A DNA stretch of 10,636 bases from Candidatus Helarchaeota archaeon (GTDB taxonomy: Archaea; Asgardarchaeota; Lokiarchaeia; Helarchaeales; HEL-GB-A). The stretch is from the NCBI GenBank assembly GCA_016840125.1, contig JAEOSY010000111.1, positions 1 to 10,636 of the forward strand, in the 5' to 3' direction. Positions 4 through 10,636 of this stretch are shown here, piece by piece (positions within the stretch are counted from its first letter, which is position 1; every line of letters begins with the position of its first letter). The notes under the pieces were generated by a model. That model saw nothing but the letters and a program-made list of their open reading frames with translations, searched no databases and was not told where the DNA came from. The position numbers were made by a program, and so were the translations under genes.

Positions 4-280
4 GTTTCAATCCTTGTTTTATTGGATTACTTATTTTGAGCCTGAGCCAATTCGCGTTTAAGGTGAGATTATGAAGTTTCAATCCTTGTTTTATTGGATT
101 ACTTATTTTGAGTTTTGCTATCTAACATCCATAGTAGATAGATATTTTTCGACTTCTGGAGTTTCAATCCTTGTTTTATTGGATTACTTATTTTGAGCCG
201 CAGGAGGCAAGCGCGTGAAAGAGTTAGAAGTCCTTCTTATTATGTTTCAATCCTTGTTTTATTGGATTACTTATTTTGAG
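4..280 (-). CRISPR. Leader-proximal end of a type I-B CRISPR array (4 repeats, 3 spacers in window)
   Basis: Four identical 37-nt repeats lie at 4-40, 76-112, 161-197 and 244-280, separated by unrelated spacers of 35 nt (41-75), 48 nt (113-160) and 46 nt (198-243). Read on the minus strand each repeat ends in GGATTGAAAC, so the last eight bases ATTGAAAC match the crRNA 5' handle known from type I-B repeats. Transcription is therefore leftward, the same as the cas operon. A weak 5-bp inverted repeat, AATCC/GGATT around a 10-nt loop, sits just before and into the handle and could guide Cas6. The repeat at 244-280 is the leader-proximal one. The array continues beyond position 1, so its size is unknown. 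No spacer matches other parts of this window by eye. Confidence 0.98.
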
Positions 281-389: not shown

Positions 390-974
390 TCATCGGGGAC
401 ATAAATTTTTGTAACAACAATCATGACACCTTTTTTTAAAGGTAGTCGGGACGGGAAAATATCCCAATTGAATGAGGTTAAAAATTTTCGTGATGATTTT
501 TTGAGTATGGTTTTTTAATTCCTCAGTAATAAAGATTTCTTTAATTAAATGATTACTTTTTGTATAACAAATTAACCCCCTGTCGACGGGAACATCAAAT
601 TGTTCCATTATCATCAATCCATATAAAATAATTTGAAATTTATAGGTATTAAAGACCTTTTCCTTATATTCAGCAAATTTATAATCTAATGGGCAAGCGG
701 TTCCATCCTCAAGAAATAATATTTCATCAACTATACCCCTAACTTTAAATTCTTTTGAGGATAAATAGACAGCAGATAGTTTCTTGGTGACATTATAACT
801 TCCTCTTAAATACTTTTTATTAATCACGCCCTTAAGTTCATGAATGTCGCGTCCTTTTCGAACTTTATACCTCCTCTCTTCATGTTGGGGAATTAATAGA
901 ATATTCTGAAAAAAAATAAATCGAGGACAGAAGAGGTACTCGATTACTTCAGAGATAGTAATACTTTCCCGCAA
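390..974 (-). CDS. cas4: Cas4, RecB-like exonuclease of spacer acquisition
   Basis: Cas4 trims 3' ends of prespacers and selects PAM-containing ends for Cas1-Cas2. The 194-aa protein has the full family layout. The first iron-sulphur cysteine is C16 in FCPR. H45 is the likely RecB motif I histidine. The nuclease motifs are GIVDE (D83), LDYK (D97, K99) and a QIILYG segment (Q114). The C-terminal cluster has C183, C186/C187 and C192. Its length is normal for the family. The start codon is TTG (972-974); there is no in-frame ATG because an in-frame TGA precedes it, but GAGGAG six bases upstream, overlapping the cas2 stop, is a convincing ribosome site. It is the last gene of the operon, 9 nt after cas2, which is unusual because cas4 more often precedes cas1. 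Confidence 0.96.
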   Translation of the reverse strand: MRESITISEVIEYLFCPRFIFFQNILLIPQHEERRYKVRKGRDIHELKGVINKKYLRGSYNVTKKLSAVYLSSKEFKVRGIVDEILFLEDGTACPLDYKFAEYKEKVFNTYKFQIILYGLMIMEQFDVPVDRGLICYTKSNHLIKEIFITEELKNHTQKIITKIFNLIQLGYFPVPTTFKKRCHDCCYKNLCPR

Positions 975-983
975 TGGAACTCC

Positions 984-1274
984 TCAGAAAAATTGGGTTT
1001 TAATATGATCTTGAACTAATTTTTTATCAAAGGAAATACCCGCAATCCTGATTTTGCCAAAACAGTTTTCACAGAGTGGGAAAAAGAAGACAGAATCTGT
1101 TGTGAAATCAATTAAGTCCTTACAAATCGTGTAGATAGAATCGAATTGATTAGAGTTTAAAGTTCCTAAGAAGACACTCTTTTGAACACGGTAAAGCCCA
1201 AAACTTTTACAGATTTTTGCGACGCGATCCCGAATTCTATTCTCGGTTATATCATAAATTACCCACGTTAACAT
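984..1274 (-). CDS. cas2: Cas2, spacer-integration complex subunit
   Basis: Cas2 forms the central dimer of the Cas1-Cas2 integrase that inserts new spacers at the leader end. The 96-aa protein shows the ferredoxin-like pattern: a first strand WVIYDI with the conserved aspartate D8, the RVAKICKSFGL helix, and the hallmark VQKSVFLG strand at about residues 30-37. Length is typical. The ATG lies 3 nt after the cas1 stop, with GGAG inside the end of cas1 acting as ribosome site, so translation is probably coupled. I see no sign of damage. Confidence 0.96.
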   Translation of the reverse strand: MLTWVIYDITENRIRDRVAKICKSFGLYRVQKSVFLGTLNSNQFDSIYTICKDLIDFTTDSVFFFPLCENCFGKIRIAGISFDKKLVQDHIKTQFF

Positions 1275-1277
1275 TAT

Positions 1278-2261
1278 TTAATCTCCGTCAGGTGAATAGT
1301 TGATCATTTTCTTGGCTAAATCATGACACCAAAATTGGAGCATATTTCTTAACTTTATCTTCTTCCGTTGATAGGTAACAGAACCATCAAAGTTCTCGTT
1401 AAATGCTTGTATTAGGACTTTCTTCCCTTCTGAGTCCAGTCGAACGGTCTTCGGGGTTTTAATAAAGAAAGCCCCCTTAATCTTTTTCATATTGATCAAG
1501 GTCACAACGATTTTATCTACATGTATTCGAAAGACCTCAATTATATCAAAAACGAGGGATTTCTTGTTATAATTATCTGTATGAAGAAGACCAATGTAGG
1601 GATCTAAACCAGCTAAAATACAAGCTCTTTCAATTAGGGAATATAAAATTCCATAACCATAATTTAGCAGACAATTGAACTCATCTTCTGCGGGATGTTG
1701 GCTTCTTTTCTTAAATTGAAACTTTTGAGGTAGTATTAAATTGAGCCCCTCAAAATAAGCTCGTGAGGCAATCCCCTCATAACCCATGATCTTCTTTTGA
1801 TTAGTACTGATTTTACCAGATACTTGAGATAGATGTTTTTTATGAGTTTTTAATTGGTTTATAATATCTTCAATGCTCTCTCTGTTTGCTTTTGAATATT
1901 TTACGCGATTTAGATACTGGATCTGATTTGATAATTTTTGAAGAATCCAGCCCTTGACTAATTCTAATCCAAAGTCTTCTGAAATAAGTTCTAATTGGCG
2001 TCGTCGTATAAAAGTTGTACTTCCGAATTTTGAGTGCCAGATTCGCCCATAAGGATTGCCATAAAAATCTAAAAAAACAATATCAATATTGTTCTCAATA
2101 GCTAATTTAATGGCATCCGTTGAAAGAGTAGCAGAAGTTGTAATTAGGATACTTCTTACTTTATGCGGAGAGATTTCTAACTTGTTAGTATCATTTTTTA
2201 TAACGAACAATTCATTTTTTTTCCGAAGATACGATCCTCTCGAATTAATCACAATTTCCAT
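1278..2261 (-). CDS. cas1: Cas1, CRISPR integrase
   Basis: Cas1 is the metal-dependent integrase that joins prespacer 3' ends to the repeat. I start it at the ATG at 2259-2261 (327 aa). The opening MEIVINSRGSYLRKK then matches the usual Cas1 N-terminus, and GGTGA lies 7 nt upstream; the earlier in-frame ATG at 2274-2276 would add five residues and overlap cas6 by 8 nt. From this start the metal ligands are E162 in GYEGIASRAYFEGL, H227 in GLLHTDNYNKKSLVFD, and E242 in DIIEVFR at the position usually held by D or E. The N-terminal beta domain is followed by the all-alpha catalytic domain, and length is normal. The gene sits in the cas6-cas1-cas2-cas4 stretch and appears intact. Confidence 0.97.
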   Translation of the reverse strand: MEIVINSRGSYLRKKNELFVIKNDTNKLEISPHKVRSILITTSATLSTDAIKLAIENNIDIVFLDFYGNPYGRIWHSKFGSTTFIRRRQLELISEDFGLELVKGWILQKLSNQIQYLNRVKYSKANRESIEDIINQLKTHKKHLSQVSGKISTNQKKIMGYEGIASRAYFEGLNLILPQKFQFKKRSQHPAEDEFNCLLNYGYGILYSLIERACILAGLDPYIGLLHTDNYNKKSLVFDIIEVFRIHVDKIVVTLINMKKIKGAFFIKTPKTVRLDSEGKKVLIQAFNENFDGSVTYQRKKIKLRNMLQFWCHDLAKKMINYSPDGD

Positions 2262-2268
2262 TGACAAT

Positions 2269-2946
2269 TCACCCATTTAATGACGTCTTATATTGATGTA
2301 CAGTTCCAAAACCCTTGGAAACGCCTTTCCCAATCCCTATGTAACTAGGGATGTTGAAATTGGTATAAAAGGATCCTCTAAAGCCAACTAAGTGCAGATT
2401 TTTCAAACGAACGGGTTTTTGGAGCTGTTTTAGATCATGATACACCTGTATTTGAGTAGGGACAGTGTAACGGAAGCATTTTGCGACGGACAAAAGATTC
2501 CCAATCAAGATTTTCTGGAGAAATAAGGATTTTTGCGCTTCGGGGAGCGACATATAGGATTTCATGTTTTTCTGATTTAGTGCAAGCCAAGGCGTCAGGA
2601 AGTGGTAGGATTGACCTGTATCTGAAATACCAAATTCACTTTCAGTTAGTCGAATCTCCTTTTCTATAATCGGAACTCGTTTTCCGCCTATTTGAAGTTC
2701 ATGGAACTTATTAAAAATTTGGCTGATTATGTCCACACCTTCGTTGATACCAATGATTGTTGGCTTACTATTTATATATTTATACTGAATTAAGGGATAT
2801 TTATACAAATACCTGTCAACTTCAATATGTTGGTGTAATAAGAAATATTCATTGAATTTGGTTGCAAAAAACCCTCTCAATTTTTGAGGATTTATAAAGA
2901 TCGAATTATCAAGGGTTAATTTAAGGATTAATTTCTTTATTTTCAT
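2269..2946 (-). CDS. cas6: Cas6, pre-crRNA processing endoribonuclease
   Basis: Cas6 cleaves the repeat RNA eight bases before its 3' end, giving the ATTGAAAC handle, and usually stays on the crRNA as a Cascade subunit. The 225-aa protein has the family signature: the glycine-rich C-terminal loop GIGKGVSKGFGTV (about residues 204-216), plus the PLIQYKYINSKPTIIGINEG block at 51-70 seen in archaeal-type Cas6. H38 or H40, in FLLHQH, are candidates for the catalytic histidine; which one cannot be told from sequence alone. It begins 9 nt after the cas3 stop with only a weak TGATC-like ribosome signal. Its place between cas3 and cas1 differs from the common I-B order, in which cas6 comes first. Confidence 0.93.
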   Translation of the reverse strand: MKIKKLILKLTLDNSIFINPQKLRGFFATKFNEYFLLHQHIEVDRYLYKYPLIQYKYINSKPTIIGINEGVDIISQIFNKFHELQIGGKRVPIIEKEIRLTESEFGISDTGQSYHFLTPWLALNQKNMKSYMSLPEAQKSLFLQKILIGNLLSVAKCFRYTVPTQIQVYHDLKQLQKPVRLKNLHLVGFRGSFYTNFNIPSYIGIGKGVSKGFGTVHQYKTSLNG

Positions 2947-2955
2947 GGGATCAAA

Positions 2956-5379
2956 TCAAAATATTATGGATGTATGAGGGGGGGAGGGAATAAATCCAGT
3001 ATCCTGAGAATACACAAAATCCAGCTCTTCACGGGATAAGAAGATAATTTTTTCGTGATCCTTAGGGAGCTTAGAGAGATGATTCCTATTAACTGAGATA
3101 ACATAACTGTAAAAATCTTTTTTCAGTTTCAAGAATGCCGTTCTTCTTTCAAAAGGATCTTTAATATCAGCTAAATTCTTGAACTTTTGCCAAACTATGG
3201 ATGCCGCTTCATCGCATTCTAAAAAAACATCAACTTTGTAGGGTTGCTCTTCTATCAATTTGAACTTGGTGGCTAGCTTTTTGAACTCTAGTTTAGTTAA
3301 AGATGCGAGCAACGTTTTTGACGTGTCTGAGCTATGTGTCTGGCTTATCTTATCAAAATATTCGTTATTAAGCGTTAGAAATTGGGATTCTTGAACCTGG
3401 GGCTTATTTTGTAGAACCTCAAGAGTTTTACTGATTAAGAAGGAGTCATAGATATATCGATAATACTCTTGTTTCTCATCGCGTAGCATCACAATAAAAA
3501 CTTCTCCTCGTTCTCTAGAGGCATTATTTCGATTGCATCGTCCCGCAACTTGGTGAATGGCGTCTAATGGGGCAAAATCCCGGTAGGTGATATCGACGTC
3601 AATGTCGACCCCGGCTTCAATTAGCTGGGTGCTGACGATTACTTTTCGTTTAGGGTCTTGCTTAATCTGATTAATTCGGCTGAGGCGTTCCTTCGGAATG
3701 ACATGGGTGGAGAGATAATAAAGGTGTGTATCTTCAAGCTCTACACTTTTTAGAGAGTTGAAAACTTGTCGACTTGCACTGATCGTATTGAGGACGATCA
3801 GAAAGTCTTTATTTTTCTGGGTAATAATCTCAGTTTGGATTTGTTCTTTGAATTCCTCTAATCGAATTGATTCTCCTAGAACTAAATTTAGATTTATTCG
3901 ATTGAGTTGTTGAAAATAATATTCATATTTGGGGAGCAGTTCGTAAATTTCGGATTTTGCCCGGCTAAAAATGAGTGGAAGCGTCGCCGTCATAAAAATA
4001 AACCGTACATTATAGACGGACGCTAAAAACTTAATGACCTTTTTAAGAAATAACCAATATTTATGGGGAATTGACTGTACCTCATCAAGAATAATTATTG
4101 AATTTATCATATTATGGAATTTCCGTATCGCCCGGTTTCTATTACTGATTATTGAATGAAATAACTGGATAAATGTGGTTACTATGACTTCGGAGTTCCA
4201 GCCTTCGATTAAAAATTCACTTTCGTGGGTTTCAAATTCATGAAGTTCATTTTTATAGGAAATATCAGAGAGATGGTGATGTTTCAGTAACAGAGACGTA
4301 TTGACAGAGACATTACCTCCAACCGTAGAGAATATGTCATAAAATACTTCAAAATTCTGATCAATTATGCTCATGAACGGAAGACAATAGATTATCCTTG
4401 GGAGATACCCCTGCGTTCTTTGGATCTGGGATCTTAGTTTCAACGCGTAAGACAGCGCGGTTAATGTTTTCCCTGTGCCAGTTGGTGCATTCAGGGATGA
4501 TATTTTATGAGTTTCAGTGAGGCTGGAAGTTACTTCATTGTAGATATCGTTTCGCATTGTATTCAATCGCGTTTTAGCAAGGTCGAAACCTTTGAGGTGT
4601 TTAAACGTATCGACGATATCCTTTTGAATGTCTATCCGCTTTTGAATAAGCGGAGTTTTAAAAATAGCATCATTTTTATCTGCTTCTAGTAAAATAGAAT
4701 ATAATAACTGATGAAGGAAGTAAACTGCAATTTTACTGCTAGAACCCAATTTCCTAATGAGTCTCTTTCCCTTTCTCAAAATAGAGGTCTGATAAATCTC
4801 AAGGAATTTCTGTTTGAACTGACCGAAACTCACCTGCAAATCGAGGTTTTGTAATCCACACGATAAAATTTCGTCGATTTCAATTCCATCGATTGAATCC
4901 ATCTGGTGTGTAATTGTTACTTTTAGATCATCGTCTTCCAAATCGAGTATCTCTGTAGCGGCGTCCTTCAAGTTCCCATGATGCTTTTTCACGATAATAA
5001 AACTGAGGATAGGGATTAAATTCGTCAAGAAGGACGTTTCATCTAAAGAATCAATGTACTGATCTAGAAGATAGTAACAGAATAGAGCACTCAGTAGTGA
5101 GTGGTTAGTTTCTCTTCTTGCTTTTAATTTCCTGCGATTAATTTCATCCTGTTCAGTAAGATAATCTTGGAAATATGCGGTAGATTTCCCAAAATCGTGA
5201 CTTAATCCTATGAGGTAGGTAACATCGCTGAGTACGTGCTTAGGAACAAAAAGATTGTGGTTAATGGACTTTTTGTTCAAGAGATACTGGCAATGTTCTG
5301 CTACTTGGAGTAAATGGTCTTTCAACACCTTTTCAGGGTGTGATAATAACTTAAAGGAAAAGGATGCGTTCACTTTCAT
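2956..5379 (-). CDS. cas3: Cas3, HD nuclease and SF2 helicase
   Basis: Cas3 is recruited by target-bound Cascade and unwinds and degrades the invading DNA. In 807 aa it carries both activities. The N-terminal HD nuclease has H22, the GLSHDFGK motif (H61, D62, K65), H93, the H133-H134 pair and D234/D237. The helicase has Walker A APTGTGKT (298-305), Walker B LDEVQ (D432-E433-V-Q435, a DExQ rather than DExH form, common in Csh-type Cas3), MTATLP (463-468), and motifs V/VI with STQLIEAGVDIDVD and QVAGRCNR (610-617). A C-terminal region follows. No nuclease or ATPase residue looks lost. The start overlaps the end of cas5 by 29 nt, implying translational coupling; the N-terminal SHPEKVLKDHL block supports this start. 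Confidence 0.97.
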   Translation of the reverse strand: MKVNASFSFKLLSHPEKVLKDHLLQVAEHCQYLLNKKSINHNLFVPKHVLSDVTYLIGLSHDFGKSTAYFQDYLTEQDEINRRKLKARRETNHSLLSALFCYYLLDQYIDSLDETSFLTNLIPILSFIIVKKHHGNLKDAATEILDLEDDDLKVTITHQMDSIDGIEIDEILSCGLQNLDLQVSFGQFKQKFLEIYQTSILRKGKRLIRKLGSSSKIAVYFLHQLLYSILLEADKNDAIFKTPLIQKRIDIQKDIVDTFKHLKGFDLAKTRLNTMRNDIYNEVTSSLTETHKISSLNAPTGTGKTLTALSYALKLRSQIQRTQGYLPRIIYCLPFMSIIDQNFEVFYDIFSTVGGNVSVNTSLLLKHHHLSDISYKNELHEFETHESEFLIEGWNSEVIVTTFIQLFHSIISNRNRAIRKFHNMINSIIILDEVQSIPHKYWLFLKKVIKFLASVYNVRFIFMTATLPLIFSRAKSEIYELLPKYEYYFQQLNRINLNLVLGESIRLEEFKEQIQTEIITQKNKDFLIVLNTISASRQVFNSLKSVELEDTHLYYLSTHVIPKERLSRINQIKQDPKRKVIVSTQLIEAGVDIDVDITYRDFAPLDAIHQVAGRCNRNNASRERGEVFIVMLRDEKQEYYRYIYDSFLISKTLEVLQNKPQVQESQFLTLNNEYFDKISQTHSSDTSKTLLASLTKLEFKKLATKFKLIEEQPYKVDVFLECDEAASIVWQKFKNLADIKDPFERRTAFLKLKKDFYSYVISVNRNHLSKLPKDHEKIIFLSREELDFVYSQDTGFIPSPPHTSIIF

Positions 5380-6067
5380 TTAGTTCCCAGTAAGCTTTTA
5401 CTTTCGCAGTTATTTTTCCACAGTTTCGTTCATAGAGAACTTCCTGATACTCAGTGACAGTGCGATCCACGTCCATTTCAGTAGGAATTGTTACAGTAAA
5501 ATACTCCTTGGAGTCCTCAAACTTAATTTGGGATATCATTTTTGTTGGGATGATGGAAATTATATCGATGAATTCATCTTGCTGCTTCAATTCTGCCTTC
5601 ATTTCATCTATAAAGCAAAAATTAGACAAAAATTCACTTTGTCCAAGGTAGGGTGTGTAATAGGATATGTGAGATTGCAGGAATTTTTTACATTTTATGT
5701 AAAGAGCCATGTCAGAATGATGGAAGTAGATGCGATATTTTACATCTTTCATTAGTTCGAAGCGGATTTGAGTTCTCGGCTCATGGCCTGCTTTCTTTAA
5801 TAAATTGAATTCATCGTCTGCGGTATTAATTAAATTTTTAGAGAGAATCATTTTTTTCACTGGGTTTAATAACTGAATTGCTATTTTAGCTGCGTCTTTT
5901 TTGAATTGAGAGAGGTATTCGTTTCGATCGATTCCTATGATAGCTGCAATTAATCCAGTTATAACTGTTCGTGTGGGAAAAGGGAACGAGAGAGGTGATG
6001 TGGTAGTATAATACCTATGGAAATGGGCATAGTCACCCCAGACATCAAATATTAATATGTCTTCCAT
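5351..6067 (-). CDS. cas5b: Cas5 (I-B/Csh type), Cascade subunit capping the crRNA 5' handle
   Basis: Cas5 is the RAMP-fold subunit that binds the crRNA 5' handle and links Cas8b to the Cas7 backbone. The 238-aa protein begins with the distinctive Csh-type block FDVWGDYAHFHRYYTTTSP (7-25) followed by PFPTRTVITGLIAAIIG, and ends with YERNCGKITAKVKAYWEL, also typical of this subfamily. No catalytic histidine role is expected because Cas6 is present separately. The ATG follows the cas7 stop after 14 nt with a weak GATGGT ribosome signal, and the 3' end overlaps cas3 by 29 nt. Confidence 0.95.
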   Translation of the reverse strand: MEDILIFDVWGDYAHFHRYYTTTSPLSFPFPTRTVITGLIAAIIGIDRNEYLSQFKKDAAKIAIQLLNPVKKMILSKNLINTADDEFNLLKKAGHEPRTQIRFELMKDVKYRIYFHHSDMALYIKCKKFLQSHISYYTPYLGQSEFLSNFCFIDEMKAELKQQDEFIDIISIIPTKMISQIKFEDSKEYFTVTIPTEMDVDRTVTEYQEVLYERNCGKITAKVKAYWELNESERILFL

Positions 6068-6081
6068 TTTACCATCGTTTA

Positions 6082-7080
6082 TTATTCTATCTTGAGTTCC
6101 GAGGCATTTTCAGTTATATCTTTAAAGACTTGGTTGAGGTCTGTCTCCTCTTTTCCTGCAATTGGGATCGGTACTAATTTGAGTTTTTTATCTATTTTGA
6201 ATTGAATCGACGCGATTTTAGTGTGATTTTTCTTTAACAGCTGATACAAAGGATTTAGATCTAGTTGATAATCATCCGTTCCCCGAACTTTTTCATCAGG
6301 TAAATCAGTTTTCAAGGTAATATATGCGTTTAATTCACCCAAATGGTAATTTTTATCACCGTAAATAACTCTTACTAGAACTCTGGGGACTTGACCAAAT
6401 TTCGACCGCGTAATCAAATTTTTAGTACCATTCCATATTCCATCTAGTAGTAGCTGGACATCACCTTCTGTCAAGTTTGTTTCCTTTGCTACGTTTTCGT
6501 TAATTATTCCGTAGAAGCAGATAAGGGAGTAATATAGAATGTCTTCTTCCCGAAATGTCTTTTGTGTTGCCCCCTCTTGCGAGGCAAATGCCCCTGTCCC
6601 CTTGATGTGCTTCATCACAACTTTATGGAGTGACCGTCCCAAGTTGAATTGGACTGGTCCCGTATGGATAATGGAACCTCTCCGTTTTTTGTCCAGCTCA
6701 ATAGGCATCGTGACGCCAAAAAGTCTAATATCAATGCATTCCTTTAATACACTAGCATCAATTTCTTTCTTCATCTCGGCGAGATCTTTGAGTTCACTCT
6801 TGGGGCTTTTCAAAAAGTCATCAGCTCTTGTTTTTGATGTCTGTATCGTCCCATCAGCAGCAACATTCTCTTTGATAAAAATCTCTTGTTCGCGGTAATT
6901 CATGAGGTAATCCCGGATTGTTCGCTTGAGGCGAACATCTGTTACCAAGTTAACACCTGTTTCTTCATCTAGTCTCGGTTTATTTTCATCCAAGGGATCT
7001 CCATTCGGATTTCCATCTTTTATATCGTATAAAAAGAGGAGTTCCGATCTATTTTCAATAATTTTTGAACTATTCATCAT
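6082..7080 (-). CDS. cas7: Cas7 (Csh2 type), crRNA-binding Cascade backbone
   Basis: Cas7 polymerises along the crRNA spacer to make the Cascade backbone. The 332-aa protein has clear Csh2 hallmarks: SELLFLYDIKDGNPNGDP near residues 12-29, the DEETGVNLVTDVRLKRTIRDYL block, and HTGPVQFNLGRSLH followed by GTGAFASQEGATQKTFREED in the middle. The fold is expected to be RAMP/RRM. The ATG directly abuts the cas8b stop (TAA then ATG), and a strong GGAGG five bases upstream lies in the last codons of cas8b, so expression above the level of cas8b is plausible. A second ATG immediately follows; either could be used. Confidence 0.96.
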   Translation of the reverse strand: MMNSSKIIENRSELLFLYDIKDGNPNGDPLDENKPRLDEETGVNLVTDVRLKRTIRDYLMNYREQEIFIKENVAADGTIQTSKTRADDFLKSPKSELKDLAEMKKEIDASVLKECIDIRLFGVTMPIELDKKRRGSIIHTGPVQFNLGRSLHKVVMKHIKGTGAFASQEGATQKTFREEDILYYSLICFYGIINENVAKETNLTEGDVQLLLDGIWNGTKNLITRSKFGQVPRVLVRVIYGDKNYHLGELNAYITLKTDLPDEKVRGTDDYQLDLNPLYQLLKKNHTKIASIQFKIDKKLKLVPIPIAGKEETDLNQVFKDITENASELKIE

Positions 7081-7512
7081 TTAATCCTCCTTTTTTCTTT
7101 TTTTAAATAGATAAGATAAATTCAACCCTAACGTAAAATAAAAACTGATCTCATCATTGCTTGACTTCCAATCATTCCCCGCCAGAAGAAAATATTTGGA
7201 AATAATCGTTTCTAATTTGGTGTAGTAATTTTTACCATATTCTATTAGTTTGTTCTGAACTTCAGGGAAAAGCCGTTTAATGAGTTTTTCGTCCATTTTC
7301 AAACCTTGGAGTTTCGACATGAACGGCTTTGCATTCCGTTCAAGAAATTGAATTTTCAACAGGAAATCTGTGAGGACGCCAACTAAAAAGGTCACCTTTT
7401 CCACGTAGTTTTGAAAAGTTTCAGGAAATTCATCAAAAATTTGTTGGATTTTATTTGTCGTTTCATCCGAACTATCAAACTCAATCAATGTTGAGGAAAT
7501 TTCTTTTTTCAA
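7081..7512 (-). CDS. cas11b: Candidate internally translated Cas11b small subunit (within cas8b)
   Basis: In type I-B, I-C and I-D systems the small subunit is known to be made from an internal start inside the large-subunit gene. Here, in the cas8b frame, TTG at 7510-7512 (residue L477) is preceded by GGAG at 7521-7524 with 8 nt spacing. The surrounding GGGAGATGATGG resembles the full archaeal anti-16S consensus. Starting there gives 143 residues (about 16 kDa), mostly helical, the size expected for Cas11. The other in-frame starts fit less well: M458 has no ribosome signal and M541 would leave only 79 residues. The motif is seen directly; that it is used is inference. Confidence 0.5.
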   Translation of the reverse strand: MKKEISSTLIEFDSSDETTNKIQQIFDEFPETFQNYVEKVTFLVGVLTDFLLKIQFLERNAKPFMSKLQGLKMDEKLIKRLFPEVQNKLIEYGKNYYTKLETIISKYFLLAGNDWKSSNDEISFYFTLGLNLSYLFKKRKKED

Positions 7513-8940
7513 ACCATCATCTCCCTTTTTTCTGAGTAGTTTTAATCGTTCTAAGAAAAGCAATAACATAAAACTTTGAACAGTGAGGGTTCGGAAAGAA
7601 TAAAACTTATCATGCCAAAGTTTTACTCTTAACTCTTTCATAATCGCTGTCAGAATAAATTCATAATCAATAAGCTTATTGGAAAAAATTTTATTTGTTA
7701 AATCCAAGAAGTATTTATCAAAATTTCGCCGATAGAAATCCAATCGGGAACTTCTTGGGAAGATTTTTCTCAAAATACTGAAATTGAACTTAAGGGGGAA
7801 TTTGTTATCTGAATAATTTTTAAAAAGTTCCATTTGCTCCAGTTCTCTTTTCACTTCAAAAAGCCTTTTTAATCGAGAGGGGAGTATATCTTCAACATAC
7901 TGTAATATTCTGAAGGCGGACTGCTGTTGTTGGAAAAATAAAAGGTTGAGATTGAGAGAATTTTCTTGTTCACTCAATAGTTCTAAAATTTCCCGTTCAT
8001 CTCCCGTTATTTGTTTTCGGCTCTCTTCTGTGATCTTAGGACTTTTCTGATATTGTTCGAGAACTTCAAATATTTCAGCGAATCCTTGATTTAAGATGAA
8101 TTTGGGAATGAGTTTGTAGGGAATTCCATAAAAATTAAAGGTTAAATTATCATCAATAAACTTCTTTCCAACCTCTAAGGTTAATGCACATTCTAAGCAC
8201 ACGGGATAATTCAAACATGCGTTTTCTCGGTTGAAACCCCCTGCTAGAAATCCCGTCTTATCCACTGTATAAAAATTGTAGGTTTGAACGAACCCAAAGA
8301 CTTCGGGTTTTTTTTGCAGACATATTGAGCAAAGCCCTTCTTCCATTCGCGATTGAACTTTATATTTTTTTGAATAATAATAATCAATTTTGGATTGTTG
8401 AACTAAATGATGCTTGAAAAGTGGAATATCTCCAAGATAATTGATTTTTTTTCCATCTAGGATCTTGATAGTGATTAATATACCCTCATTTTTACTCAAT
8501 ATTTTTATTATTTCCTCTAAATCTTTTATGATTTGGCTATAATTATCTTGAATGCACCTATCAAGCGCTGTAATAAATTGGATATTGTCGTTAGAAAGTT
8601 GATTTTTACCCTTTTGCATTCTAAATTGTTTGAACCAATTCACAATTTTAATCGGAAACGTTTTTTTGACTTCGGTCACAATGGAGGTTGGCAGTAAGTC
8701 TGTACCGCGAGGTGACCCTTTTCGATAGAGATACTTTTCTAATTTACTAGAATCATATTCTTCGCTTTCAATCCTAATATAATTAAAGAGATCGAGTTTT
8801 TTCTCTAGAAGAATCGCTAGGACATATTTATTTTGGCTTTTGGTGAATGGTTTTTGAATTAGAATCTCTAGTGAATTACTAACATCTTTATTTTCTCGGT
8901 GCAGAATAAATTTGCCGATATTGTAGATCGCTTGAATCAT
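7081..8940 (-). CDS. cas8b: Cas8b (Csh1 type), Cascade large subunit
   Basis: Cas8b is the large subunit that recognises the PAM and recruits Cas3. The 619-aa protein opens with MIQAIYNIGKFIL, as Csh1 proteins do. A four-cysteine zinc-binding pair follows (C204-x-x-C207 and C248-x-x-C251, with an extra C242) framing the typical YNFYTVDKTGFLAGGF segment. The C-terminal 150 residues are helical and charged, as expected for the part that acts as or produces the small subunit. It is the first gene of the operon; the ATG at 8938-8940 has only a weak ribosome signal (GGGAACGGGAAT). Sequence identity within this family is low, so the call rests on the N-terminus, the zinc motif, length and position before csh2. 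Confidence 0.95.
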   Translation of the reverse strand: MIQAIYNIGKFILHRENKDVSNSLEILIQKPFTKSQNKYVLAILLEKKLDLFNYIRIESEEYDSSKLEKYLYRKGSPRGTDLLPTSIVTEVKKTFPIKIVNWFKQFRMQKGKNQLSNDNIQFITALDRCIQDNYSQIIKDLEEIIKILSKNEGILITIKILDGKKINYLGDIPLFKHHLVQQSKIDYYYSKKYKVQSRMEEGLCSICLQKKPEVFGFVQTYNFYTVDKTGFLAGGFNRENACLNYPVCLECALTLEVGKKFIDDNLTFNFYGIPYKLIPKFILNQGFAEIFEVLEQYQKSPKITEESRKQITGDEREILELLSEQENSLNLNLLFFQQQQSAFRILQYVEDILPSRLKRLFEVKRELEQMELFKNYSDNKFPLKFNFSILRKIFPRSSRLDFYRRNFDKYFLDLTNKIFSNKLIDYEFILTAIMKELRVKLWHDKFYSFRTLTVQSFMLLLFLERLKLLRKKGDDGLKKEISSTLIEFDSSDETTNKIQQIFDEFPETFQNYVEKVTFLVGVLTDFLLKIQFLERNAKPFMSKLQGLKMDEKLIKRLFPEVQNKLIEYGKNYYTKLETIISKYFLLAGNDWKSSNDEISFYFTLGLNLSYLFKKRKKED

Positions 8941-9066
8941 ATTCCCGTTCCCATTAATTCATAAAAAAAATCCTAGGTCTATCTGAGCTAATAACTTAAA
9001 AATAGAATATATATGTCGAAAAAATAAATCTTTGCATTGTATCAATATGACATAAATTAATTTTTT
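8941..9066 (-). promoter_or_regulatory. Probable promoter of the cas operon
   Basis: No coding sequence lies here. On the minus strand two TATA-like elements are visible upstream of cas8b: ATATATAT (9007-9014), which would start transcription about 45 nt before the ATG, and TTTATTTT preceded by GCAAAGA (about 9022-9036). Further upstream, TATGTCATATTGA (9042-9054, minus strand) is identical over 13 bases to part of the palindromic element beside the AbrB-like gene, and is a candidate operator about 100 nt before cas8b. Which TATA element is used cannot be decided by eye. Confidence 0.4.
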
Positions 9067-9143
9067 TTGTTTATTTTCAACAAAGTTTCATAGTAAAATT
9101 TTAACAAAATCCTTCATCAGGTTTTAACGTAGAGGACTATCTC

Positions 9144-9453
9144 TTGTAAACTTTTGACAAAGCCCTTTGTAAACTTTTAACGAATTTGTAAACTTCTAAC
9201 GAAATCTTTGTAAACTTTTAACGAATTTGTAAACAATTAACGAAATTTTTGTAAACTTTTAACGAATTTGTAAACAATTAACGAAATTCTTTGTAAACTT
9301 TTAACGAAACTTGTAAACAATTAACGAAAACTCTTGTAAACTTTTAACGTGCGCGTAAACTTTTAACAAACTTGCAAACCAATAACGAAGTCCTTTGTAA
9401 ATTTCTAATGGACTTGTAAACTTCTAACAAGAGTCTTTGTAAACTTCTAACAG
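9144..9453. repeat. Iteron-like array of ~15 17-bp motifs phased at two helical turns
   Basis: Fifteen copies of a motif with consensus TTGTAAACTTTTAACGA start at 9144, 9167, 9186, 9208, 9227, 9249, 9268, 9291, 9311, 9334, 9353, 9372, 9395, 9414 and 9437. Steps alternate between 19-20 and 22-23 bp, with one break of two consecutive 19s near 9334-9372. The mean is 20.9 bp, and every second copy is 41-43 bp apart, about four helical turns. In copies 4-9 an AAACTTTTAAC version alternates with AAACAATTAAC, so a 42-bp dimer has been duplicated. Weaker copies flank it (9091-9107 with two mismatches; 9454-9470). Each unit is a loose palindrome (GTAAA...TTAAC). TAA stops occur throughout, so the stretch is not coding. 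A set of protein-binding sites is the likeliest reading; the protein is unknown. Confidence 0.9.
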
Positions 9454-9520
9454 ATGTTAATTTTTAACACCCCCAAAAAAAAACAAATAGTGAATCTCAA
9501 TACATTCAAATTTATGCTCG

Positions 9521-9539
9521 TTCCCTTTCTTCAAGGGAA
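9521..9539. other. Hairpin TTCCCTT/AAGGGAA downstream of the AbrB-like gene
   Basis: A perfect 7-bp inverted repeat with a 5-nt loop lies about 40 nt past the stop of the AbrB-like gene. It could form an RNA hairpin at the 3' end of that transcript, but no T-run follows it on the minus strand, so a simple intrinsic terminator is unlikely. The same arms recur at 10184-10204 with a different loop. The rest of 9471-9576 shows nothing else recognisable. Confidence 0.5.
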
Positions 9540-9576
9540 GGTTATTTAAGCCCCACGTTTTGAAGGAAAAATTATT

Positions 9577-9771
9577 CTATTCTTTTGAACTCTCTTTAGT
9601 TTTTGCATACAAATCTACTGGAACTAGTTTTATATAACCTTCCTCTGCTACAACCTTGAAAAAATTGGTATTATAACGTTCCAGAATCTCTTTTGGTAGA
9701 TGGATTTTTCCGGTTTTTTCAACTTTTTTAACGTCTTTCATGTCTTCAATTTTTTCTAATCGGTCATCCAT
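9577..9771 (-). CDS. AbrB/SpoVT-type swapped-hairpin DNA-binding protein
   Basis: The 64-aa protein has an acidic and basic N-terminal helix (MDDRLEKIEDMKD) followed by one AbrB-like domain at about residues 14-53: KVEKTGKIHLPKEILERYN, then FFKVVAEEGYIKLVPVD. This is the two-half beta pattern of dimeric swapped-hairpin DNA binders, which act as transcription regulators or as antitoxins. I start it at ATG 9769-9771, because AGGTG lies six bases upstream; a GTG at 9778-9780 would add three residues. No toxin gene (PIN, RelE, Doc) sits next to it on either side, so a regulator is likelier than an antitoxin. It lies upstream of the iteron-like array and cas operon and divergent from a nuclease-like gene. 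Its control of either is inference. Confidence 0.8.
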   Translation of the reverse strand: MDDRLEKIEDMKDVKKVEKTGKIHLPKEILERYNTNFFKVVAEEGYIKLVPVDLYAKTKESSKE

Positions 9772-9845
9772 TGAGAACACCTTTTACAAATATCCAATAG
9801 AATCTTGCCATTTTAAACTTTATTTAAATATTACTTCCTTTTTCC

Positions 9846-9892
9846 AAATATAAGCTTGTCAAAATGGAAATGCTTATATGTCATATTGACAT
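9846..9892. promoter_or_regulatory. Divergent promoters with a perfect palindromic operator candidate
   Basis: On the plus strand GGAAATG (9866-9872) followed by CTTATATG (9873-9880) is a good archaeal BRE plus TATA pair directing transcription rightward. On the minus strand CTTATATTT (9846-9854) is a TATA candidate for the AbrB-like gene; TTTAAATA near 9824-9831 is an alternative. ATGTCATATTGACAT (9878-9892) is a perfect palindrome with 6-bp arms and a TAT centre that overlaps the rightward TATA element, so a protein bound there would block that promoter. TATGTCATATTGA (9877-9889) also occurs in front of cas8b. Confidence 0.5.
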
Positions 9893-10255
9893 TAGGAGTA
9901 TTGTCAAATGAGTTGTTCTATTTTGGTGTGAAATGAAAAACGAAAATTGGGTGTAAAGGAACTCAGAGAGGTGAAAGGAATTCAACGAGAAGTTTTTGTT
10001 AGCATCTCCTTTTTCTGGTCTCAGCTGAAAACAAGCATTTTTGATAAAAAACCCCCTTCTAGATTAAATATATTATCGGGACAGTATGTGTCTTACATTC
10101 AACAAAATCAGATCCGAAGTTTAAGAGAGGTGAAAGGTACTGCTCCTTTTTAATTTTACCTCTAAAATTTTCCTTCCCCTTCATTCCCTTTTCACACAAG
10201 GGAAAGTACCCTCGATTCTGTATCTCAATAGAATTAATGTGGTAAGGTGGTGAGG
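9893..10255 (+). other. Untranslated stretch with short direct repeats, upstream of the nuclease-like gene
   Basis: No convincing gene is present. A 7-codon ORF (ATG 9933 to TAA 9956, MKNENWV) has GGTG four bases upstream and could be a leader peptide or chance. AGAGAGGTGAAAGG occurs twice, at 9965-9978 and 10124-10137, exactly 159 bp apart; each copy contains a GGTGA ribosome-site core, but no ATG or GTG follows at suitable spacing. A weak hairpin AAAGG/CCTTT followed by Ts (10133-10151) could be a terminator-like element. The role of the stretch is unknown. Confidence 0.4.
10184..10204. other. Second copy of the TTCCCTT/AAGGGAA hairpin
   Basis: A perfect 7-bp inverted repeat with loop TTCACAC lies about 50 bp before the start of the nuclease-like gene. 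Its arms are identical to those at 9521-9539 while loop and flanks differ, so the stem, not the whole element, is what the two sites share. It might be a transcript-level structure or a binding site; it is not followed by a T-run. Confidence 0.45.
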
Positions 10256-10636
10256 ATGGTGAGTAGCACGCTGAAGGGGAATATGGGAATCAATTCGGTG
10301 CTGGTGCAGCTGGGGCGGTTCGGGGTGCAAGGGCGGGTAATGTGGGCGAAGAATCACTGGGATGTAGCAATTGAGGATGAAGGCGAAGAAACAAAGGCAG
10401 AGGTCAAATATTCCTTTCAGGAAAAACGCTTTCGCTTCAGCATCTCCCCGCACCAAAAAAAGCATTGCGATTACGTTGTCCTCGTCTTCGATTACCGAGT
10501 AGCGATGCGATTCTACATAATCCCCATGCGGGAAGTCGGGGGGTACTACATCACGCTCAACCCCTTCTCTAATTATTTTAGCAAGTATAAGAAATATGAT
10601 AATTGCTGGCAATTACTCCTCCCCATTAAAGACCGT
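10256..10636 (+). CDS. PD-(D/E)XK nuclease-like protein, 5' part (cut by window end)
   Basis: An uninterrupted frame runs from ATG 10256 to the window edge (127 codons, no stop). The N-terminal KGNMGINSVLVQLGRFG helix, then HWDVAI (D36), AEVKYS (E49, K51) and a strand HCDYVVLVFDYR, follow the order of PD-(D/E)XK endonuclease-fold proteins: an N-terminal helix, the D, then the E-x-K pair. Relatives include Holliday-junction resolvases, homing endonucleases and restriction-like nucleases; which group this is cannot be said. AGGTG at 10245-10249 supports the ATG; GTG at 10259 is an alternative. Codons end mostly in G or C (CTG, GGG, CGG, then CGC, TTC, ATC), unlike the AT-ending cas genes, suggesting recent transfer or different selection. 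Confidence 0.65.
   Translation, partial: MVSSTLKGNMGINSVLVQLGRFGVQGRVMWAKNHWDVAIEDEGEETKAEVKYSFQEKRFRFSISPHQKKHCDYVVLVFDYRVAMRFYIIPMREVGGYYITLNPFSNYFSKYKKYDNCWQLLLPIKDR

Follow-up and report, generated by a model that had tools for sequence, protein, structure and literature searches.

How archaea and bacteria silence their costly and risky CRISPR-Cas genes until they are needed is only partly known. In the sections available of a review of CRISPR regulation, Lrp and Csa3 are mentioned, and AbrB and tandem or multiple binding sites do not appear (PMC10013973). In the excerpts available, Csa3a and Csa3b of Sulfolobus are described as DNA-binding proteins that are encoded beside cas genes and act on cas transcription (PMC4333418, PMC7480081, PMC10013973). 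Ss-LrpB, according to the accessible part of its report, binds to CRISPR leaders, with an activation of CRISPR B of about 2-fold, and its Box 1 reads TTGTAATTTTTACAA (PMC4046817). A non-coding element near type I CRISPR loci is found in CreTA modules, as described in the portions consulted (PMC9458426, PMC8501985).

The operators of archaeal Lrp/AsnC (FFRP) regulators, such as Ss-LrpB, BarR and FL11, are presented in the excerpts available as semi-palindromes of 13-15 bp with an AT-rich centre and TTGTAA-like half-sites. Their centres lie two (or three) helical turns apart, and dimers bind them cooperatively with wrapping of the DNA. About three to six sites per operator are described there, at a leader or a metabolic gene. 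In plasmid iterons and partition centromeres, sites of about 20 bp are repeated directly at two-turn intervals; usually such repeats, with a step near 21 bp, adjoin the gene of a small DNA-binding protein. Among the top matches in the open-licence literature, judged by title and the start of the abstract, there was no paper on a long row of operators at the promoter of cas genes.

Genomic context of the array

The window, that is, the whole stretch of 10,636 bp analysed here and apparently an entire metagenome contig, carries a type I-B operon on the minus strand in the order cas8b-cas7-cas5-cas3-cas6-cas1-cas2-cas4, followed by a CRISPR (Table 1). In this operon cas3 was called by NCBIfam only and cas6 by Pfam only. 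The identical CRISPR repeats enclose spacers of unequal length (35, 48 and 46 nt). Among the best 120 protein matches, the relatives of Cas8b with more than 40% identity and an organism name comprised five archaeal sequences and one from a metagenome-assembled genome called Actinobacteria; the five archaeal ones belong to Methanoperedens and its kin, Methanosarcina and Altiarchaeia. The host is probably an archaeon. The plasmid collection held one Cas8b relative (Deferribacter, 29% identity). In viral contigs no Cas8b relative was confirmed, and the CRISPR repeat of the window had 0 matches there.

Table 1. Positions of the array, the neighbouring genes and the promoter-proximal sites in the window.
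Feature	Position	Strand	Basis or placement
CRISPR with three spacers between four identical 37-nt repeats	4..280	-	Rfam CRISPR-DR7
Other operon genes: cas7, cas5, cas3, cas6, cas1, cas2, cas4	390..7080	-	Pfam and NCBIfam
cas8b/csh1 (TM1802 type), first operon gene	7081..8940	-	Pfam PF09484, E=3.9e-151; NCBIfam TIGR02556, TIGR02591
TATA-like box ATATATAT, presumed cas8b promoter	9007..9014	-	inferred from sequence
Second palindromic site TATCAATATGACA, differing from TGTCANNNTGACA at one position	9040..9052	.	between array and cas8b
Decayed left edge	9067..9130	+	sites 9067, 9091 (strong), 9114 (right half only)
Starts of strong copies	9091, 9144, 9167, 9186, 9208, 9227, 9249, 9268, 9291, 9311, 9334, 9353, 9372, 9395, 9414, 9437	+	weight matrix
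Core array: 15 successive 17-bp sites	9144..9453	+	weight matrix, steps and phases, pattern against shuffles
Amplified centre: 41-bp dimer of AACTTTT site and AACAATT site	9165..9349	+	TRF
Decayed right edge: one symmetric site with the core TGTTAATTTTTAACA	9454..9470	+	site placement
Small AbrB/MazE-like protein, 64 aa from ATG at 9771	9577..9780	-	hhalign to PF04014 profile
Second palindromic site TGTCAATATGACA, exact match to TGTCANNNTGACA	9879..9891	-	upstream of AbrB-like gene

The consensus TTGTAAACTTTTAACGA (17 bp) recurs upstream of this operon in 15 strong copies in a row, with a 16th strong copy at 9091, which bears out the count of about 15 recurring 17-bp sites given by the sequence-only reading. 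All 16 are on the plus strand and score 15.9-27.1 bits in a weight-matrix scan of the window, where the top scores elsewhere are 6.6 (plus strand) and 6.0 (minus strand). A two-copy pattern has nine matches in the window and no match in 200 dinucleotide shuffles, and the array is far above chance expectation. Three degenerate copies, set by inspection at 9067, 9114 and 9454, extend it to 9067-9470 and bring the total to 19; the decay of copies at both edges was correctly recognised. The whole array is downstream of the AbrB-like gene and covers the stretch 127-530 bp upstream of cas8b, the distance from the cas8b start being 127 bp if measured from 9067 or 151 bp from 9091. It adjoins the presumed promoter of cas8b, not that of the AbrB-like gene.

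Such direct repeats beside an AbrB-like gene, in AT-rich DNA (9001-9500, GC 25.6%), also resemble a cluster of replication iterons, or a centromere-like site for partition, on a plasmid or another element bearing the cas operon; the AbrB-like neighbour would then be the centromere-binding protein. This origin is unlikely. Unlike iterons and centromeres, the array adjoins a cas promoter, and neither Rep, Orc/Cdc6 nor ParA genes were found among the window proteins scanned (Pfam, NCBIfam), the contig ending 856 bp past the AbrB-like gene so that further genes could sit outside the window. GC skew in 500-bp steps has no clear switch at the array, 10 kb being short for judging it. A blastn search of 72,556 plasmids, with the low-complexity filter on, found no similar array, and in phages gave one short weak match (73% identity, in two records of one Campylobacter phage).

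Site anatomy and symmetry

Each site consists of two blocks, GTAAAC and TAAC, which flank a variable 3-bp centre and form a 13-bp core (GTAAAC-N3-TAAC). Six columns are without variation in the 15 copies (G3, A5-7, T12 and A14), and columns 1, 2, 4, 8, 13 and 15 each deviate in one copy of the 15. The centre (columns 9-11), columns 16 and 17 and most linker columns are more variable, though 13 of the 15 copies have A as their first linker base. The half-site is TTGTnAA, in a 7-3-7 layout. This two-block pattern fits a dimer contacting both sides of an AT-rich centre, as a compatible arrangement rather than a proof of one.

The description of the sites as palindrome-like holds for some edge copies and is weak for the consensus, which pairs at five of eight positions, a value equalled or bettered by 3.9% of random 17-mers. 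The selected edge copies at 9067, 9091, 9144 and 9454 reach six of eight pairs (P=0.017) in a set that omits 9114 (3/8); P is 0.11 for nine edge copies, with 9114 again omitted, and 0.26 over all 19 copies. The neatest symmetric copy is TGTTAATTTTTAACA at 9455.

Spacing and helical phase

The steps between the 15 copies starting at 9144-9437 are 23, 19, 22, 19, 22, 19, 23, 20, 23, 19, 19, 23, 19 and 23 bp. Their mean of 20.93 bp agrees with the two helical turns (20.9 bp) reported before. Throughout the regular run the site is constant at 17 bp and the linkers measure 2-3 or 5-6 bp, and length changes occur only in the linkers. The alternation of 19 and 22-23 bp that had been described applies to most of the array; it is broken once (19, 19 at 9334-9353-9372), and a jump of 53 bp, with one degenerate copy inside, separates 9091 from 9144. 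Similarly, the dimer period, which had been called constant at 41-43 bp, has this value in 12 of 13 sliding two-step sums and is 38 bp in one.

For a period of 10.5 bp the phase coherence (R) of the 15 copies is 0.71; the best period, 10.41 bp, gives 0.81. R falls to 0.04-0.13 when each step is altered by 1 bp. A shuffled step order equals the observed 0.71 in 6.6% of 20,000 trials, and R is 0.58 over all 19 copies. The deviation of individual sites from the first one reaches about 100 degrees. The claim that all copies face the same side of the helix was therefore too strong; the phasing is an average and not strict, and the phase evidence is at most suggestive.

The predicted curvature of the whole array, computed with wedge parameters, is strong, with an end-to-end shortening of 0.51; 300 mononucleotide shuffles have a mean of 0.15, an sd of 0.08 and a maximum of 0.42. 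Curvature was rejected as the cause of the array, since in 126-bp windows the array gives 0.22 compared with 0.30 at 4281, and it may be a possible aid only. The strongest predicted curvature of the window is at 4281-4406, inside cas3.

Tandem copying and occurrence elsewhere

The centre of the array consists of 4.4 copies of a 41-bp unit with 92% matches (TRF), in which the two versions of the site noticed earlier, AACAATT and AACTTTT, indeed alternate at 9208-9334. This part clearly arose by recent tandem copying of the 41-bp dimer, and its regularity is therefore partly ancestry, so that any argument for selection has to come from the edge copies. In seven edge copies the two blocks are better conserved than the other columns: of 23 distinct non-majority states, five lie in the core, which makes up 10 of the 21 columns (P=0.01, the core having been defined post hoc). 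GTAAA and TAAC are retained in the edge copies and the centre and linkers change.

The recent copying of the centre keeps in play a minisatellite, namely a functionless 41-bp unit that spread through intergenic DNA by slippage or unequal exchange and whose near-two-turn period is accidental. The near-identical 41-bp copies of the centre are what such a process leaves behind, a mean step this near 21 bp is not very improbable by chance on a rough, uncomputed estimate, and the core conservation after removal of shared states reaches only the P of 0.01 given above. Against this, the edge copies hold their two blocks while linkers and centre change, and site length is fixed while short and long linkers compensate each other, as in the 12 of 13 two-step sums of 41-43 bp. 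On balance a functionless origin is rather unlikely. The earlier proposal of selection instead of slippage does not stand as an either/or, because the central dimers are recent tandem copies.

The distribution of the array bears on the same question. By exact-pattern search of genome and viral collections it occurs in one contig only, as would be expected of a minisatellite. With the exact three-copy pattern, nothing comparable turned up in 84,980 species genomes, a collection that covers contigs of at least 3,000 bases and a type of search that misses arrays with a diverged motif. Nine matches were returned, and all are other tandem repeats. Seven were rejected as heptamer-type units like AACAGTT, another as a 23-bp repeat, and the last, from the unrelated cyanobacterium Lyngbya (about 7128-7182), as a 21-bp repeat of the GTAAACTTTTAACTTTTAACT type. 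The Lyngbya repeat carries GTAAACTTTTAAC, the 13-mer of the window, three times at 21-bp steps, apparently in a heptamer-derived simple repeat; the 13-mer at a 21-bp period can thus come from slippage, a further point in favour of a minisatellite. In 2.9 million viral contigs there were 0 matches for the two-copy and three-copy patterns, and the palindrome-pair pattern was found in one viral stretch.

Distant TM1802-type cas8b loci served as controls. From 1,082 genomes of three phyla, 19 PF09484 matches were obtained, and dropping the four below the family cut-off left 15, counted regardless of whether cas8b is the first operon gene. A tandem array (TRF score of at least 40, within a flank of at most 1.5 kb) was seen at none of the 15, a weak negative result: at least two flanks are cut short, one locus starting at a contig end with nothing upstream and another having a flank of about 0.8 kb. 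The cas8b identities are 23-33% in 11 of these loci, and the other four, including the one with the best Pfam match, gave no tblastn alignment. The closest Cas8b relatives, one of 66% identity encoded on a contig of 9,476 bp and others of 45-49%, were compared as proteins only.

A putative operator at the cas promoter

The array appears to be laid out like the operators of archaeal Lrp-type regulators, in a likeness of layout and not of membership. It has their two-turn step, on average only (20.93 bp, with single steps of 19-23 bp), and its TTGTnAA half-site resembles theirs with one extra base per half. Unlike the 15-bp site of Ss-LrpB, which is arranged as 6-3-6 in the excerpt available, the half-sites of the array are 7-3-7 and lie 2 bp wider apart. 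It also differs in its 16 strong sites, compared with the about three to six described in the excerpts on Lrp/AsnC operators, and in its place upstream of a cas operon and not of a metabolic gene or a leader. The window proteins scanned (Pfam, NCBIfam) included no Lrp-type regulator.

Unlike Csa3a/Csa3b control, the locus has no Csa3-type gene among the scanned window proteins, and the portions consulted on Csa3 describe no long site array. Like the element of CreTA, the array is non-coding and near a type I-B operon; unlike it, the 17-bp site is not repeat-like. The best alignment for a CreA-like degenerate CRISPR repeat near the AbrB-like gene scored 11.5, which does not exceed the background in the rest of the window (up to 12.0).

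The best single reading of these features, put forward tentatively, is a homotypic operator at the cas promoter, to which dimers would bind cooperatively. Successive 17-bp sites about two helical turns apart would be filled by a small homodimeric DNA-binding protein. Adjacent dimers would touch, bending or wrapping about 300-400 bp of DNA beside the cas8b promoter, and the resulting nucleoprotein complex could act as a steep, cooperative switch for the entire type I-B cas operon. The tandem duplication of the 41-bp dimer, which has recently raised the copy number, may tune the switch. Candidate binders are the adjacent AbrB-like protein or an Lrp/AsnC-type (FFRP) regulator encoded elsewhere, a type whose described archaeal operators share the two-turn spacing and TTGTAA-type half-sites.

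The regulatory role suggested by the sequence-only reading gains from the position of the array next to the cas8b promoter, the kept core and the restriction of length changes to the linkers; the spacing is also compatible with slippage, and the phase is at most suggestive. The Lyngbya repeat, together with the symmetry test that omits 9114, makes the operator slightly weaker and the minisatellite slightly stronger. A far-reaching version, which is a long shot, would make the array a CRISPR-control element in which at least 16 phased sites support a nucleosome-like wrap and a steep cas switch, tunable by copy number and reset as tandem copies are gained or lost. If true, control of a cas promoter through a long array of phased operators would be unusual in being cooperative and adjustable by the number of sites. 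The array also offers a defined DNA probe for fishing out its regulator.

Promoter-proximal palindromic sites

A near-palindromic word is present before both cas8b and the AbrB-like gene (Table 1). Two occurrences of TGTCANNNTGACA with one mismatch were counted, compared with 0.30 expected, a number equalled in 8 of 200 shuffles; TGTCAATATGACA with at most three mismatches is at chance level in the window (6 compared with 4.5 expected). The overlapping TCAATATGACATA is exact at 9042-9054 (plus strand) and 9877-9889 (minus strand), where 0.03 matches would be expected allowing at most one mismatch. Some 35 bp downstream of either copy there is a candidate TATA-like box, and the AbrB-like gene has another candidate box. 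The word is a possible common operator, and its presence in front of both genes means that cas8b and the AbrB-like gene may share a second regulator.

The same word could instead mark the ends of a small inserted element of 848 bp (9042-9889), comprising the array and the AbrB-like gene, with the array as its subterminal protein-binding repeats. Inverted repeats of 22 nt (I1, 82%) bound this segment, and TCAATATGACATA is exact and inverted at its two ends, well above the 0.03 expected. An insertion of this kind is nevertheless highly improbable: no target-site duplication was seen by eye, and a near-palindromic word about 35 bp from the TATA-like box of both genes suits a shared operator better.

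The AbrB-like protein and the contig end

The small protein encoded beside the array is a probable member of the SpoVT-AbrB family, judging by profile comparison and a predicted model. Nothing was above the cut-off in Pfam, NCBIfam or PHROGs, the best Pfam row being UFD1_N1 (E=0.051). Against a profile built from 30 PF04014 matches, one of them below the family cut-off, hhalign gave a probability of 85% (E=6e-6), and the family HMM score of 7.9 bits was reached by none of 2000 shuffled versions. A search of 5.8 billion proteins for homologues returned only the protein itself, and plasmids returned none. The single-sequence model is of moderate confidence (mean pLDDT 69.3), and we take its order of strands and helices to suit the SpoVT-AbrB fold. 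The fold search gave nothing significant, and VapB and MraZ were among the insignificant rows.

An ORF at 10247-10636 runs past the contig end; a search found no homologue, and it has a weak match to phrog_12058, a family of unknown function. The partial ORF at 10256 gave a single-sequence model with a mean pLDDT of 57.5 and no significant match in the fold search. Upstream of the ORF at 10247, the 14-bp word AGAGAGGTGAAAGG is repeated exactly and in direct orientation at 9965-9978 and 10124-10137, 159 bp apart. Among 301 genomes, the best match to the AbrB-like protein of the window is a stretch in another locus (1501-1659), where the reading frame of an ABC-type ATPase ends in an AbrB-domain-like sequence.
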